A stretch of 32,137 nucleotides of DNA from a virus. Numbering within the stretch: the stretch's first letter is position 1; each line of letters starts with the position of its first letter. The stretch spans positions 1-32,137 of IMG/VR virus record IMGVR_UViG_3300034375_003618. One strand, given 5' to 3'. Shown piece by piece: positions 11,803 through 28,280 of this stretch. The notes under the pieces were generated by a model. That model was not told where the DNA came from. It searched no databases and worked only from the letters and a program-made list of their open reading frames with translations. Both the position numbers and the translations under genes were made by a program.

Positions 11803-13035
11803 TTATACTGCCCATCTTTGCGGTGAAAAAGATTTACTTTCTGAAATCAAAGGTTTAACTATTTCTACTAAATATCCGATACTGTCATTCATATGGTCAA
11901 ATCCCTCAGCCTTGTCAGGAATATTTGTATTTTCCTTGTATATCTGCCTTTGTAACCCTTTTATGATCGTTTTGCAAGTTGGATTAACATAAATGTATCT
12001 TTTGCCGTTTGAATCTTTTAGCCTAGAGTTCACAGCGTTAACTCGATCTCTAATTAAACTGTGTTTAAATTTACATTTAACATTAAATCCAGCGTTTTGT
12101 AATATTGTTAAATCTGTTTTACCACCAGCAGAAGTTTTTCTTTGTCTACAGGCGGGGTCGGGATAAACAAATATTTTGCTTTTGCTACCGTATCTATTTC
12201 TGATTTCTTCTACCATTTCATCTGTGTTTGAAGAATAAATAACAATCTCATCAACAAAATGAATTATATCTCGATCAATCTGGCAAACGGAAGCTGACAT
12301 TGGATCCACGTTAAAGTCTAAGCCAATATGAATTGGTTTTGACCAATCTATTTGTTTGTGTTTAACATTTTCTACAGGGTGGAAATTATAATAAACTGCA
12401 CCAGCATAATTTTCAAACGTACCCTCAAATTCTTGTCTAAATGTTCTAATGTCAATATCTTGTTTAGCTTGTTCGATTTCTTCTTTAGAAACCATGCCAC
12501 CCTCTAGTGTAGTAAATTGAAAACTATCCCACTCTCCATCTTCTTTGCCTTTAAGATACATACGGTAAGACCAATTACCATAACCTTTAGGAGAACCACA
12601 CATCAATACATGCCCTTGAGTATCTGCAACAGAAGCCCTTAAAACTTCAGTCCAAGCTTTTTCGTCAATATCAGCAAACTCGTCCATGATTAAAAAATCT
12701 AATCCAGCACCCCTTAGTCCATCATAATTTTCACAACCTTTTAAAGTAATCTTGCTTCCTGTTTTCTTAATCGTTATTGATAGATTAGATTCATTTATAG
12801 TTTCTATCCAATTAAACGCATGAAGCATTTCTTTAAGTTTAGACCAAACAATTTCTCTAGCCATTTTGAAAGTAGGTGCAACATACCAGATATTTTGTTT
12901 AACTTTTGTTGCGTATTTCATCATTTCAGTAATACAAAGATAAGTCTTACCAAATCTTCTTCCTGAAACTAAAACTCTAAATCTTTTTTTACTTGTTGAA
13001 ACCTTATGTTGGGGTTTTGTTAATGTTATTTTCAT
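11803..13035 (-). CDS. terL: Terminase large subunit
   Basis: 410 aa. ATPase domain: Walker A SGRRFGKT at 24-31, adenine-binding YVAPTFKMAR at 51-60, Walker B LDFLIMDE at 112-119 and the coupling motif GSPKG at 147-151. RNase H-like nuclease domain: HIGLDFNVDPMS (Asp240 and Asp244), an acidic centre near DE262-263, YPDPA (Asp293), and a final DHMNDSIGYL (Asp380/384). All key residues are present, so it should be active in ATP-driven packaging and DNA cutting. The 5' end overlaps a small upstream gene by 32 bp. Confidence 0.95.
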   Translation of the reverse strand: MKITLTKPQHKVSTSKKRFRVLVSGRRFGKTYLCITEMMKYATKVKQNIWYVAPTFKMAREIVWSKLKEMLHAFNWIETINESNLSITIKKTGSKITLKGCENYDGLRGAGLDFLIMDEFADIDEKAWTEVLRASVADTQGHVLMCGSPKGYGNWSYRMYLKGKEDGEWDSFQFTTLEGGMVSKEEIEQAKQDIDIRTFRQEFEGTFENYAGAVYYNFHPVENVKHKQIDWSKPIHIGLDFNVDPMSASVCQIDRDIIHFVDEIVIYSSNTDEMVEEIRNRYGSKSKIFVYPDPACRQRKTSAGGKTDLTILQNAGFNVKCKFKHSLIRDRVNAVNSRLKDSNGKRYIYVNPTCKTIIKGLQRQIYKENTNIPDKAEGFDHMNDSIGYLVEIVKPLISESKSFSPQRWAV

Positions 13036-14841: not shown

Positions 14842-14980
14842 GGTATTTATTCTTACCTTTCTGTCTACGTTTGTTCTTGTTCATAGTTGAAGTAATTGGT
14901 TTTCTGCCAATGGAAGTACCTTTTTCAGTTTTGGTGTACTCAATAGTACTACCGAATAAATTACCCTTTTTCTTCGCCAT
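14825..14980 (-). CDS. 51-aa very basic protein
   Basis: Starts MAKKKGNLFGSTIEYTKTEK and ends with RRQKGKNKYRGQGK. About one third of residues are Lys or Arg. Its ATG lies 20 bp inside the end of the small terminase-like gene, with an AAAAAAGATG context. Short basic proteins like this occur beside the terminase in related phages and may bind DNA or RNA; function unknown. Confidence 0.58.
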   Translation of the reverse strand: MAKKKGNLFGSTIEYTKTEKGTSIGRKPITSTMNKNKRRQKGKNKYRGQGK

Positions 14981-15329
14981 CTTTTTTTTCTTCAACAGCT
15001 TCTATCACTAAAGGCAAAGGCTCGTTATAATTTGTTTGTTCAATCTTATCTCTTTGGTCAAGATGTTGTTTCCCTAACCATATCTGCATAACAACATTAC
15101 CGCTTAAAGCTTTTTCAAACTGTGCACGTCTTAAACTTATATTGCCCGTCTCTCTACCCTTTTTAATGAGGTGGACATAATTACGTTGTAAGGTCTTTGT
15201 AGATACCCCTACGAAAGAAGCAATTTCATCATAAGTACAGTGTAGTTGAGCCAATTTTTGGATAGTTTGCTCGTCTACTTGTTTCATTGGTCTTGCCATA
15301 GTTTTGTCCATTTTTACTTTCTCATACAA
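14961..15329 (-). CDS. Small terminase-like HTH protein
   Basis: 122 aa. An N-terminal helix-turn-helix (IQKLAQLHCTYDEIASFVGV, then STKTLQRNYV) recognises DNA, followed by LRRAQFEKALSGNVVMQIWL and GKQHLDQRDK, a segment common in phage small terminase or packaging HTH proteins. The acidic/basic tail ends EEKKDGEEKG. By position it belongs to the packaging operon ahead of terL, although many small genes lie between. The ATG chosen at 15329 overlaps the FkbM gene by 16 bp; in-frame ATGs at 15311 and 15299 are alternatives, and 15311 has a better-placed GAGAAAG. Confidence 0.7.
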   Translation of the reverse strand: MYEKVKMDKTMARPMKQVDEQTIQKLAQLHCTYDEIASFVGVSTKTLQRNYVHLIKKGRETGNISLRRAQFEKALSGNVVMQIWLGKQHLDQRDKIEQTNYNEPLPLVIEAVEEKKDGEEKG

Positions 15330-16012
15330 TATATGATTGTATCAATAAATCCACCCCAATAACCCTCTTTACCTTGATGTTTTTGATTATAGTAACTTGG
15401 TTGAATATCTACAAAAAAGTGTTTTGATAGCCTGTCCATTCTTTTAAAGAAGTTGTCCATTAATCTGTCTTTAGTAAATGAATATTCAAATACAAGTTTG
15501 TTAATGTTGGCGAAATTGTGTTCGTTATCAAATATTTCTAATTCTGAGCCCTCAATATCTAACTTAATAGCGTTTAAATCTGGGTGTCTTGTTAATATTT
15601 CGTCAAACTTCATGCACTTAATTTCAACTGTAGGTAACTTTTTCTTATAGTGTGAAACTAAAGAGTGTCGCCAAGTGTTAGGTGCGATTGTGAACTGTCC
15701 TGTTCCACCTGTTTGATTAACCGCATATTGGAAACATTCTAAACTAGTAGGATATTTTGAGTTAATCATTGTAGCGTTTTGTTGTAATATTTGGTAATTT
15801 TCTGTTTCTGGCTCGTAGCAATAAACTTTCTTTGCACCTTTTGTAGCCGCATATAATCCAAATACTCCTATGTGCGCACCACCGTCAAGCCATACATCAT
15901 TAGATTCTACGGCAAAATTAAGCTTCTTTTTTCTGTAAGCTTCTTTTGTTATAATTTCTTTAATTACATTCTCGTCAGTTGTATTTTTTCTATATATAAA
16001 ATTATCTAGCAT
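15314..16012 (-). CDS. FkbM-family SAM-dependent methyltransferase
   Basis: 232 aa, the usual size for the FkbM domain. SAM-binding motif I is VWLDGGAHIGVFG (about 40-52), the acidic loop is YCYEPE (64-69), and the FkbM signature KLDIEGSE lies at 150-157, with VFEYSF further on. FkbM enzymes usually O-methylate hydroxyl groups on sugars or small molecules. Here the gene overlaps the TET/JBP dioxygenase gene by 11 bp and the packaging HTH gene by 16 bp. The coupling suggests its hydroxyl substrate may be a hydroxylated base or a sugar attached to it; that is inference. Host glycan methylation is the alternative. Confidence 0.88.
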   Translation of the reverse strand: MLDNFIYRKNTTDENVIKEIITKEAYRKKKLNFAVESNDVWLDGGAHIGVFGLYAATKGAKKVYCYEPETENYQILQQNATMINSKYPTSLECFQYAVNQTGGTGQFTIAPNTWRHSLVSHYKKKLPTVEIKCMKFDEILTRHPDLNAIKLDIEGSELEIFDNEHNFANINKLVFEYSFTKDRLMDNFFKRMDRLSKHFFVDIQPSYYNQKHQGKEGYWGGFIDTIIYCMRK

Positions 16013-16910
16013 GTTTAATCCTTTTTAGTTCTTCTTGTGCTGTTCCACACTCAATCATTTTTTCCCTGTAATAACAAATAACAGATATTCTTTCGTATGG
16101 TTGGTTTGATTTAGTTTCTGTGTTACCGTGTAATTCGTGGACATCAAATAAAGCTACATCACAGCTTCTAACATTAACAGCAACCCCATATTTAGGAATA
16201 ACTGTATAAGCACCTTTATAATCCCCTGTTTGTAACACGGCTAAATTTCCAAAACCATCGTGCAAATCTCCTTTATCATAATGTGCGGCAGTTCTGAAAT
16301 TTTTATTTACTGTAACGGTAGTAAAAACTGTATTGTGTATTTTAAAATCTTTACTTGTTTTATCCCACTGTTTTTTTTGATTAGCAAATCTTTCTGGTAA
16401 AGATTCTTCAAAAACTTTAGAGATACTTTGAATATAAGGTAATGCGTTTTTATAAGTGTTAAAATGTTTTTCAGTAAAAGCTGTTTGACGGCAATAAGGT
16501 ATTCTTGGGTATCTATCAGCATAACCAATTATACTTGAATATACGTTTCTAGCTTTTGGGGAATTAGAAAGAGTTCCATCTTTTTTTAAAGGTAGAAATC
16601 TATTACCGCCTAAAACTTTACCTACTACGCTACCATCAACTATATCTCCAACTTGAATATTAAAGTTTCCACCCGCTTTTGCTCTATTACTTGTTTTGCC
16701 AATAGCTTTTTTTAAAACAGGATATGCTTTTTCTGCAACATTACTTGGAATACAATTTTTTCTGAAAACTACTAACGGCTCTCCTTTTTCATTATAAACC
16801 ATAGTATCTTCTGAAACTAAATGTTTTATGTGGCTTTCATCTAAAAAAGTACCTTCTAATTTTTTTACTTCTTCATCTGATAATATAGGCTTAACGTGGA
16901 TTGTGTTCAT
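16002..16910 (-). CDS. TET/JBP-family 2-oxoglutarate/Fe(II) dioxygenase
   Basis: 302 aa. The catalytic core shows FRTAAHYDKGDLHDGFGNLA (about 205-224) with the iron ligands His210 and Asp212, the GDYKGAYTVIPKYGVAV strand pair, a second part DVALFDVHELHGN giving the distal His (261, or 258), and Arg274 in PYERISVICYY for 2-oxoglutarate. This arrangement matches phage TET/JBP proteins, known to oxidise 5-methylpyrimidines in DNA. All metal and cosubstrate residues are present. It is coupled to a ParB-like gene upstream (ATGA) and a FkbM methyltransferase downstream. No cytosine-5 methyltransferase was seen in the window, so whether it acts on 5mC or thymine is open. Confidence 0.85.
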   Translation of the reverse strand: MNTIHVKPILSDEEVKKLEGTFLDESHIKHLVSEDTMVYNEKGEPLVVFRKNCIPSNVAEKAYPVLKKAIGKTSNRAKAGGNFNIQVGDIVDGSVVGKVLGGNRFLPLKKDGTLSNSPKARNVYSSIIGYADRYPRIPYCRQTAFTEKHFNTYKNALPYIQSISKVFEESLPERFANQKKQWDKTSKDFKIHNTVFTTVTVNKNFRTAAHYDKGDLHDGFGNLAVLQTGDYKGAYTVIPKYGVAVNVRSCDVALFDVHELHGNTETKSNQPYERISVICYYREKMIECGTAQEELKRIKHAR

Positions 16911-17542
16911 TTTGCACCAACTAATTCTTCCTTATAATTTTTATATTCACGTTCAACAACAGCAAAAACAGTATCAGTTAAATTGTCTTTGTTATATTCA
17001 ACTTGTAATTCCTTAATCATTTGTTTAAATTTTTGTTCAGTTTCTGTATCAAGAAATAGTTGCACCATTTTAACAGTTGAAGTAGGTGCTTGAATATCAT
17101 CAAGATTAATATCTGTTTTTAAATCATTAGTAGGTTTGAACTCTAATTTTTCTTCTGTAAAATTTTGTATTTCATCAAAGCCTAAACCTGTAAGATCAAT
17201 ATCAAAGTTTGCGTCTTGTAACGCTAACAGTTCTTGTTTTAATAAATCCTTTTCCCATTTAGATTCATCGCCAGATCTGTTGTCCATGATACGGTAGGCG
17301 GTAGCTTCTTGTTTAGAAAAATTTCTTTTTAAAACAAACGCCTTATTCTTGCCTAAATTTTTAAGTGCTTTCCAACGAGTATGACCGACCACTATAACAT
17401 TATCTTGATCTAAAACGATAGGTTGATTATTTCCGAACTCTTTGATAGACTTCATGACTTTTTCAACCGCTTCAATAGGTATTTCTCTAGGATTGTTTTT
17501 ATAAGGTTTGATTTCGTTAATATCTATTTCTTCAATGTTCAT
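16907..17542 (-). CDS. Stand-alone ParB/Srx-like protein
   Basis: 211 aa. The N-terminal ~95 residues are a ParB/sulfiredoxin-fold domain: DINEIKPYKNNPREIP, SIKEFGNNQPIVLDQDN, then VIVVGHTRWKALKNLG (the GxxR box). In many phages this domain is fused to a DNA methylase. Here the methylase is absent and the C-terminal ~100 residues form another small domain with FLDTETEQKFKQMIKEL. The gene overlaps the TET/JBP gene by 4 bp, so it may target or license modification of DNA. A role as a partition protein is less likely. The nuclease/NTPase activity of such domains is family knowledge, not shown here. Confidence 0.78.
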   Translation of the reverse strand: MNIEEIDINEIKPYKNNPREIPIEAVEKVMKSIKEFGNNQPIVLDQDNVIVVGHTRWKALKNLGKNKAFVLKRNFSKQEATAYRIMDNRSGDESKWEKDLLKQELLALQDANFDIDLTGLGFDEIQNFTEEKLEFKPTNDLKTDINLDDIQAPTSTVKMVQLFLDTETEQKFKQMIKELQVEYNKDNLTDTVFAVVEREYKNYKEELVGAK

Positions 17543-27246: not shown

Positions 27247-27810
27247 TTAAATTTCAATAAAGTTTAATTTGCCTTGATCGTGCCATCTTTTAATCCAGTA
27301 TTCATCTTTTTCCATTTCGTGTGATGGATAAGCGTAAGTTTTAGAAACATTATGAACTTCTCTAGTATATTTATTACAAGTTTTAAAAAAATTATAACCA
27401 GTAACATTAAGATCACATTTAATATTATTCAAAATCCAATAAACAGAAACCAATCCTGTTGTTGGTCTATAGTAATCTAATTGCTCTTGCATTTTAGTAT
27501 ATTCTTTTAAGTTCCATAACCATGCGTGAGGTTTATACAAATCTGGCATTCGTTCCATACGCTTAGCACCTTTTTCAGCATTAAGTCTTATAATGTTTTT
27601 AAATTCTGGGTAAAATCCTAATTTATCATAAAGAAATTTATGTGCTTGATTAACTAAATTATTAATCCAAACATCACAAGGTTTATCTAATATTCCTAAG
27701 TTTAATCTTATGATACAATCATATTCAGAATAATTAGGCTCAGTTTTTAAATCTGCGTTTCCAATTAATAATATTTTTTTATTTGATAGATATTCAAACG
27801 GGTCGAACAT
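27247..27810 (-). CDS. GT29-like (sialyltransferase-type) glycosyltransferase
   Basis: 187 aa. The start KKILLIGNAD and IIRLN (35-37) followed by DVWINN (46-51), then RPTTGLVSVYWIL (115-127), NVTGYNFF (135-142) and YPSHEMEKDEYW (His164) reproduce the order of the L, S and later motifs of the GT29 family. Such enzymes move a sugar from a CMP-linked donor. It is coupled to a methyltransferase gene (TAATG) in the fibre/lysis region. Likely targets: host surface glycan or a phage component; DNA with hydroxylated bases is a bolder option. Length is short compared with animal GT29, common for phage forms. Confidence 0.72.
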   Translation of the reverse strand: MFDPFEYLSNKKILLIGNADLKTEPNYSEYDCIIRLNLGILDKPCDVWINNLVNQAHKFLYDKLGFYPEFKNIIRLNAEKGAKRMERMPDLYKPHAWLWNLKEYTKMQEQLDYYRPTTGLVSVYWILNNIKCDLNVTGYNFFKTCNKYTREVHNVSKTYAYPSHEMEKDEYWIKRWHDQGKLNFIEI

Positions 27811-28280
27811 TAAGAATACATTACAGTATATCTAGAATAATCTTTTAATTTATCGTTCCACCATTCTTCAGGTTTAACAGTTGCGTGTGCGTTCATTCCA
27901 TTAGGTAATATTTCTCTAGCTTCTCTAGTACAAATAGTTAAGAAAACCCATTGGTCAGAATAATTAAATATATCTTGTAATACTTCATCAATACTTTCTT
28001 CGGGAATATGTTCCAAAACATCTGTTGAAATAACTAAATCAAATCTTCTATCTGGTTTTACAGAAAACTCTGGTACTGCTGGATCATATTTAGATGCATT
28101 CCATTCTTTAGGGTGGTTTTGTGCTTTGCCACAACCATAATCTAATATTGTTTTTATTTGTTTAGATTTTATTATTTCGTTAATGATTGGAATATATTTA
28201 ACGACAGTTGTGCCTCTCCACTTTTTATCGTTTTGATGTACTAATTTAGCTTGTTCTAGATATGTTTCGTATTCGTTCAT
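27810..28280 (-). CDS. Class I SAM-dependent methyltransferase
   Basis: 156 aa. SAM motif I ILDYGCGKAQ (46-55) and motif IV FDLVISTDVLEHIPEES (80-96), as in Methyltransf_11/12-type enzymes. The C-terminal part is short, so the enzyme is minimal. Its start overlaps a Lys-rich 33-aa gene (ATGA), and its stop overlaps the glycosyltransferase start. Together they form a glycan-modifying pair; the substrate is not shown. Confidence 0.8.
   Translation of the reverse strand: MNEYETYLEQAKLVHQNDKKWRGTTVVKYIPIINEIIKSKQIKTILDYGCGKAQNHPKEWNASKYDPAVPEFSVKPDRRFDLVISTDVLEHIPEESIDEVLQDIFNYSDQWVFLTICTREAREILPNGMNAHATVKPEEWWNDKLKDYSRYTVMYS

Follow-up and report, generated by a model that had tools for sequence, protein, structure and literature searches.

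Organization of the locus

The window, meaning the whole stretch of DNA analyzed here, is a virus record of 32,137 bases (IMGVR_UViG_3300034375_003618). Its minus strand carries a compact four-gene cassette, with the terminase large subunit gene further downstream:

16907..17542, minus strand: ParB_N-domain protein, 211 aa, opening the cassette (Pfam ParB_N, E-value 1.5e-9; phrog_620, 3.7e-40)
16002..16910, minus strand: TET/JBP-type 2OG-Fe(II) dioxygenase (TET), 302 aa, with residues H210, D212, H261, R274, Y280 and R282 singled out (Pfam Tet_JBP, 2.7e-27; AlphaFold2 model; PDB fold matches)
15314..16012, minus strand: FkbM-family SAM-dependent methyltransferase, 232 aa, type a, filling the slot described below (PF05050, 1.2e-12; TIGR01444, 3.8e-20; class I fold)
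14961..15299, minus strand: small-terminase-like HTH protein (TerS), closing the slot (phrog_309, 3e-10; conserved downstream gene)
11803..13035, minus strand: terminase large subunit (TerL), given as context (PF03237, 4.2e-12; phrog_2, 1.4e-47)

As the preliminary description had it, the first three reading frames overlap end to end, by 4 nt between ParB and TET (ATGA, 16907-16910) and by 11 nt between TET and FkbM (16002-16012), and lead into the small-terminase-like gene. The profile match of this last gene is weaker than those of the other cassette genes. Because its relatives begin with MARP..., its true start is likely the ATG at 15297-15299, 14 nt past the FkbM stop, rather than the TTG of the reading frame as listed (14961-15329). 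Scanning for promoters and terminators yielded nothing beyond chance expectation. Elsewhere in the window, by the tail genes (27247-28280), a gene pair encodes a Methyltransf_23 protein and a 187-aa protein without a Pfam hit that looks, by eye, like a sialyltransferase-type glycosyltransferase.

A close cultured relative of the window is Pelagibacter phage HTVC112P (complete genome, 32,478 bases), which carries the same four genes. The window belongs to a virus of SAR11 bacteria, which are among the most abundant in the ocean and whose phages are common. The HTVC112P proteins are 83% (TET) and 77% (FkbM) identical to those of the window, with dN/dS values of 0.125 and 0.086, respectively, indicating purifying selection. 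GenBank wrongly labels the HTVC112P TET homologue "DnaJ chaperone/SNF2 DNA repair protein". HTVC112P also has a different, GT9-like glycosyltransferase close to its tail fibre gene.

A neighbourhood survey of the kind proposed in the preliminary description was carried out on 113 distinct related loci from viral contigs and phages; only eight relatives were found among 84,980 cellular genomes. ParB lies immediately upstream of TET in 92 of the 101 relatives with room for it, and the order ParB-TET-FkbM-TerS is kept in all close relatives whose neighbouring sequence is present. Pairwise distances of TET correlate more strongly with those of ParB (r = 0.82) than with those of TerS (r = 0.54). 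Given this conservation and the purifying selection on TET and FkbM, the arrangement is not a chance one. Small phage genomes are generally compact, and unrelated passenger genes could have come together near the terminase genes; the ParB-TET pairing, a divergent lineage that again has the order ParB-FkbM-TET (see below) and the purifying selection make this highly improbable, and the survey largely refutes it.

The TET/JBP dioxygenase

The profile searches suggested in the preliminary description place the two enzymes in the families named there. For the dioxygenase, the match to PF12851 (Tet_JBP) scored 95.4 bits against a curated cutoff of 34.9. The HxD motif, distal histidine and 2OG arginine noted earlier are indeed present (H210-x-D212, H261 and R274) and are near-invariant in 95 relatives. 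A direct sequence search against the PDB gave no useful match, whereas a fold search succeeded: for an AlphaFold2 model built from 55 relatives (mean pLDDT 92.3), the 26 best PDB matches were all TET-family DNA dioxygenases (TET2, CcTet, NgTet1 and CMD1), followed by FTO. The match to TET2 (7ne3) had an E-value of 7e-13 and a TM-score of 0.64. We predict from fold and catalytic residues that the enzyme oxidizes 5-methylpyrimidines in DNA. The motif R274-I-S-V-I-C-Y280-Y-R282 aligns, on our reading, without gaps to the TET2 segment containing R1896, S1898, Y1902 and H1904. On the basis of this motif line-up, rather than of a structure superposition, R282 putatively takes the place of the base-contacting histidine of TET2.

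An exchangeable slot downstream of TET

While ParB and TET are fixed, the slot downstream of TET is exchangeable. It holds FkbM, a TET-associated glycosyltransferase (TAGT; PF20691, Pfam "TET-Associated Glycosyltransferase"), a P-loop kinase, or a kinase together with a homologue of the amino acid:DNA transferase of phage Vi01 (orf00247; Pfam "Amino acid:DNA transferase"). Slots of the last type add a glutamine amidotransferase, an amidoligase-like protein, a GNAT protein or an unknown 246-aa protein. As the slot is filled elsewhere by known or predicted DNA-base tailoring enzymes, the assignment of FkbM to a modification cassette is strengthened. Together with the DNA-oxidizing fold of TET, these enzymes support the earlier proposal of a compact system for modifying phage DNA.

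Mapping slot state onto the TET tree requires a minimum of 23 changes, compared with a mean of 58 when states are shuffled; the slot is therefore inherited yet frequently swapped. Different slots are found beside near-identical TETs (98% for L048/L050, 98% for L082/L085 and 93% for L104/L106). In one phage lineage with differing slots, ParB and TET fall to 49-57% identity while the genes on either side hold at 76-92% (TerS) and 79-90% (TerL), which argues that the module is, judging from these identities, also exchanged as a whole block. An apparent slot class with no tailoring gene proved to be an artefact of ORF picking, as these loci hold a kinase; correcting for this left the number of changes at 23.

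Several slot proteins deserve separate mention. The 246-aa protein (L070, 5188-5928, and 12 similar loci) has a Rossmann-like motif, matches nothing in Pfam, PHROG or NCBIfam and, in almost every locus visible in full, is found with both the kinase and the homologue of the amino acid:DNA transferase; it is a candidate new tailoring enzyme. Further tailoring candidates, both without a Pfam match, are an amidoligase-like 289-aa protein (L065, 3922-4791) and a 322-aa protein (L047/L048). One slot kinase (L081, 3983-4513) matches phrog_800, "terminase small subunit", a misannotation.

Exchange in the slot also bears on whether the oxygenase writes or erases a modification. An eraser acting on RNA or on another base, such as N6-methyladenine at GANTC, would fit the crystallization of CcTet with N6-methyladenine DNA, the position of FTO as next fold match and the GANTC methylation of Pelagibacter, but it would have no use for a changing set of partners (glycosyltransferase, kinase or amino acid:DNA transferase), and we regard it as improbable.

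A second, divergent lineage of cyanophages shows a related pattern. Prochlorococcus phage MED4-184 has the order ParB-FkbM-TET, its TET sharing just 20% identity with that of the window, and most of the 80 further contig loci of its clade share this order. In two loci of the clade, TAGT stands where FkbM sits; this repeated exchange supports equivalent roles for the two enzymes. The MED4-184 protein annotated in GenBank as "DNA methylase" (L150, 3324-3965) is actually a ParB_N protein.

The FkbM methyltransferase

The window FkbM scored 48.7 bits against PF05050 (cutoff 22.7) and 72.8 bits against NCBIfam fkbM_fam, TIGR01444 (cutoff 37.7). Fold searching returned a generic class I methyltransferase and nothing more specific, and sequence comparison with the PDB gave weak matches through the SAM motif, mainly to arginine methyltransferases. 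Two types occur among the loci. Type a, that of the window, is the sole recognized tailoring gene of the slot in 26 loci, and TAGT was absent where it was looked for (the window, complete HTVC112P, complete MED4-184 and three further contigs). Type b, approximately 25% identical to type a, was found only beside TAGT. The most economical interpretation is that a hydroxymethyl base is the target of type a and a sugar that of type b; O-methylation of a hydroxyl is accordingly the predicted activity of the window enzyme.

Small molecules are the usual substrates of FkbM enzymes, however, and TET might make a hydroxymethyl base while FkbM methylates a base-attached sugar, a small molecule or a structural protein. 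The pairing of type b with TAGT fits sugar O-methylation. We nevertheless think such a target unlikely for the window enzyme, as its type lacks a TAGT in the slot and in the genomes tested, and FkbM swaps with TAGT and kinase in a single slot.

Thymine or cytosine as the substrate

The preliminary description saw no cytosine-5 methyltransferase. This was confirmed for the window and extended to the complete HTVC112P genome (PF00145); none was found in 140 window-type loci or in the complete genomes of P12024L, Cr30, DLP6, S-CBWM1, C48C1, MED4-184 and Zemanar. A published restriction digest of DLP6 DNA was set aside as evidence, since its outcome is ambiguous as described. The thymidylate-synthase-family hydroxymethylase (PF00303) is likewise absent from the window and HTVC112P. 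Phages Vi01, M6 and PhiW-14 have PF00303 and lack TET, the reverse of the window and HTVC112P. In a divergent Melnitz-type clade, 61 of 62 loci have a C5-methyltransferase gene immediately upstream of TET, and 61 of 64 TETs carry Asp at position 282, compared with Arg in all 109 window-type enzymes (109/109). Arg282 is not a universal mark, since the cyanophage TET has Leu there. Based on the missing C5-methyltransferase and thymidylate-synthase-type hydroxymethylase and on the difference at position 282 in the C5-methyltransferase-linked clade, thymine, previously offered as one possibility, is the favoured and fairly likely substrate.

The identity of the base does not follow from the slot enzymes by themselves, because T-even TAGTs use hydroxymethylcytosine and homologues of the slot kinase (29-35% identity) occur in the C5-methyltransferase-linked clade. 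For the latter reason, the presence of the kinase was not accepted as proving thymine. The amino acid:DNA transferase of Vi01 belongs to a pathway of thymidine hypermodification. In Caulobacter phage Cr30, TET, a homologue of this transferase and a kinase are encoded within 9 kb (L004; KF301602, 51.8-60.7 kb), and the phage also has an ordinary-looking thymidylate synthase. The Melnitz-type phages (L033, 3137-5321; L169-L239) pair an HhaI-like C5-methyltransferase with their divergent TET, and some also encode a P-loop kinase related to that of the slot.

The same module could instead act on host-made 5-methylcytosine (5mC), giving 5-methoxymethylcytosine. A host may in principle supply 5mC, a divergent related clade carries a C5-methyltransferase beside TET, and D215, presumably at the position of an NgTet1 base-contact residue, is common to the window-type and Melnitz-type enzymes. 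Characterized phage TETs are also reported to act on 5mC, according to the passage of PMC11404850 that cites Burke et al. 2021. Against this, no window-type locus or complete genome tested has a C5-methyltransferase, the homologous Vi01 transferase belongs to a thymidine pathway, and Pelagibacter is reported to have GANTC methylation and no restriction-modification systems (PMC9516812, a study not concerned with 5mC). A cytosine substrate therefore seems unlikely to us.

The ParB-like protein and the link to packaging

The ParB_N match (38.2 bits, curated cutoff 26.3) is clear, while the partition-protein profile TIGR00180 scored 39.6 bits, below its cutoff of 58.45. Given this sub-cutoff score, and as no ParA was recognized among the genes examined, the cassette was not classed as a ParABS partition system. 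The protein probably binds or targets DNA for the oxygenase. Of the 88 loci in which the gene after the slot can be seen, 73 have a terminase small subunit there, and 13 lack it. Because of these 13 loci, the terminase link may reflect genome layout only. The earlier suggestion that DNA is modified just before packaging may hold, a timing link between the two being possible.

Proposed pathway

We propose that the cassette is a post-replicative DNA-hypermodification module. TET would convert thymine in phage DNA to 5-hydroxymethyluracil by oxidizing its 5-methyl group, FkbM would use SAM to O-methylate the new hydroxyl, giving 5-methoxymethyluracil, the ParB-like protein would bind or target DNA for the oxygenase, and the modified base would hide the phage DNA from nucleases. 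We put the probability of this reading at about 0.5. To our knowledge, 5-methoxymethyluracil has not been described as a DNA base. The wider proposal, that a thymine-acting phage TET replaces the usual thymidylate-synthase-type hydroxymethylase, that FkbM yields 5-methoxymethyluracil and that the slot rapidly switches methyl, sugar, phosphate and amino acid decorations, is more tentative, at slightly less than an even chance.

If this is correct, a widespread marine phage lineage varies its DNA chemistry by a one-gene swap, and a thymine-acting phage TET would parallel JBP in viruses of prokaryotes and might be useful as a tool enzyme. Comparing the C5-methyltransferase-linked and window-type clades offers a direct way to test what sets the base specificity of TET, and the cassette is present in phages already in culture (HTVC112P and MED4-184/P-HS2).

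Comparison with known systems

Phage TET hypermodification is already known and is established for cytosine. In these 5mC systems, as far as the cited sections describe them (PMC11404850; also PMC12730594), TET makes a hydroxymethyl handle for tailoring enzymes, and glycosyltransferases are involved. As in the window, where FkbM is in the slot, TET and a tailoring enzyme share one cassette; unlike them, the window has no C5-methyltransferase, and FkbM is its only slot enzyme. In the loci of Burke and colleagues, a phage C5-methyltransferase reportedly supplies the 5mC. The contrast at position 282 is one with the C5-methyltransferase-linked Melnitz-type clade examined here.

Vi01 of Salmonella, M6 of Pseudomonas and PhiW-14 of Delftia are similar in that 5-hydroxymethyluracil is the expected handle, and Vi01 has the amino acid:DNA transferase homologous to a slot gene of related loci. 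They differ from the window in carrying a PF00303 gene and no TET; in the Vi01-type pathway, an enzyme of the thymidylate synthase family provides the hydroxymethyl group ahead of replication. In base J of kinetoplastids, the TET/JBP fold of JBP1/2 oxidizes thymine in DNA, which is then decorated (PMC12730594), although that system is eukaryotic and the decoration is glucose, not methyl. A ParBc-domain gene, of unknown function according to the authors, recurs near the base-modification genes of CmoX/CmoY phages (PMC12783734), whose handle, unlike that proposed here, is carboxymethylcytosine made by a C5-methyltransferase homologue.

The Coopervirus mycobacteriophages follow the same gene order and logic. 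Zemanar gp1-gp5 comprise an annotated ParB, a protein with a weak Tet_JBP match, an amino acid:DNA transferase (ADDT), a P-loop kinase and a terminase in the same order, and Zemanar also lacks a C5-methyltransferase; Cooper gp2 is a named TET/JBP member. Zemanar gp4, annotated as "adenylate kinase" (L323, 2875-3465), is really a Ploopntkinase3 protein. These phages differ from the window in having ADDT and kinase instead of FkbM in the slot and a distant TET. The ParB-TET-transferase-kinase-terminase order thus already exists in cultured phages, and what is new here is the FkbM version, the mapped exchange of the slot and the probable specificity for thymine.
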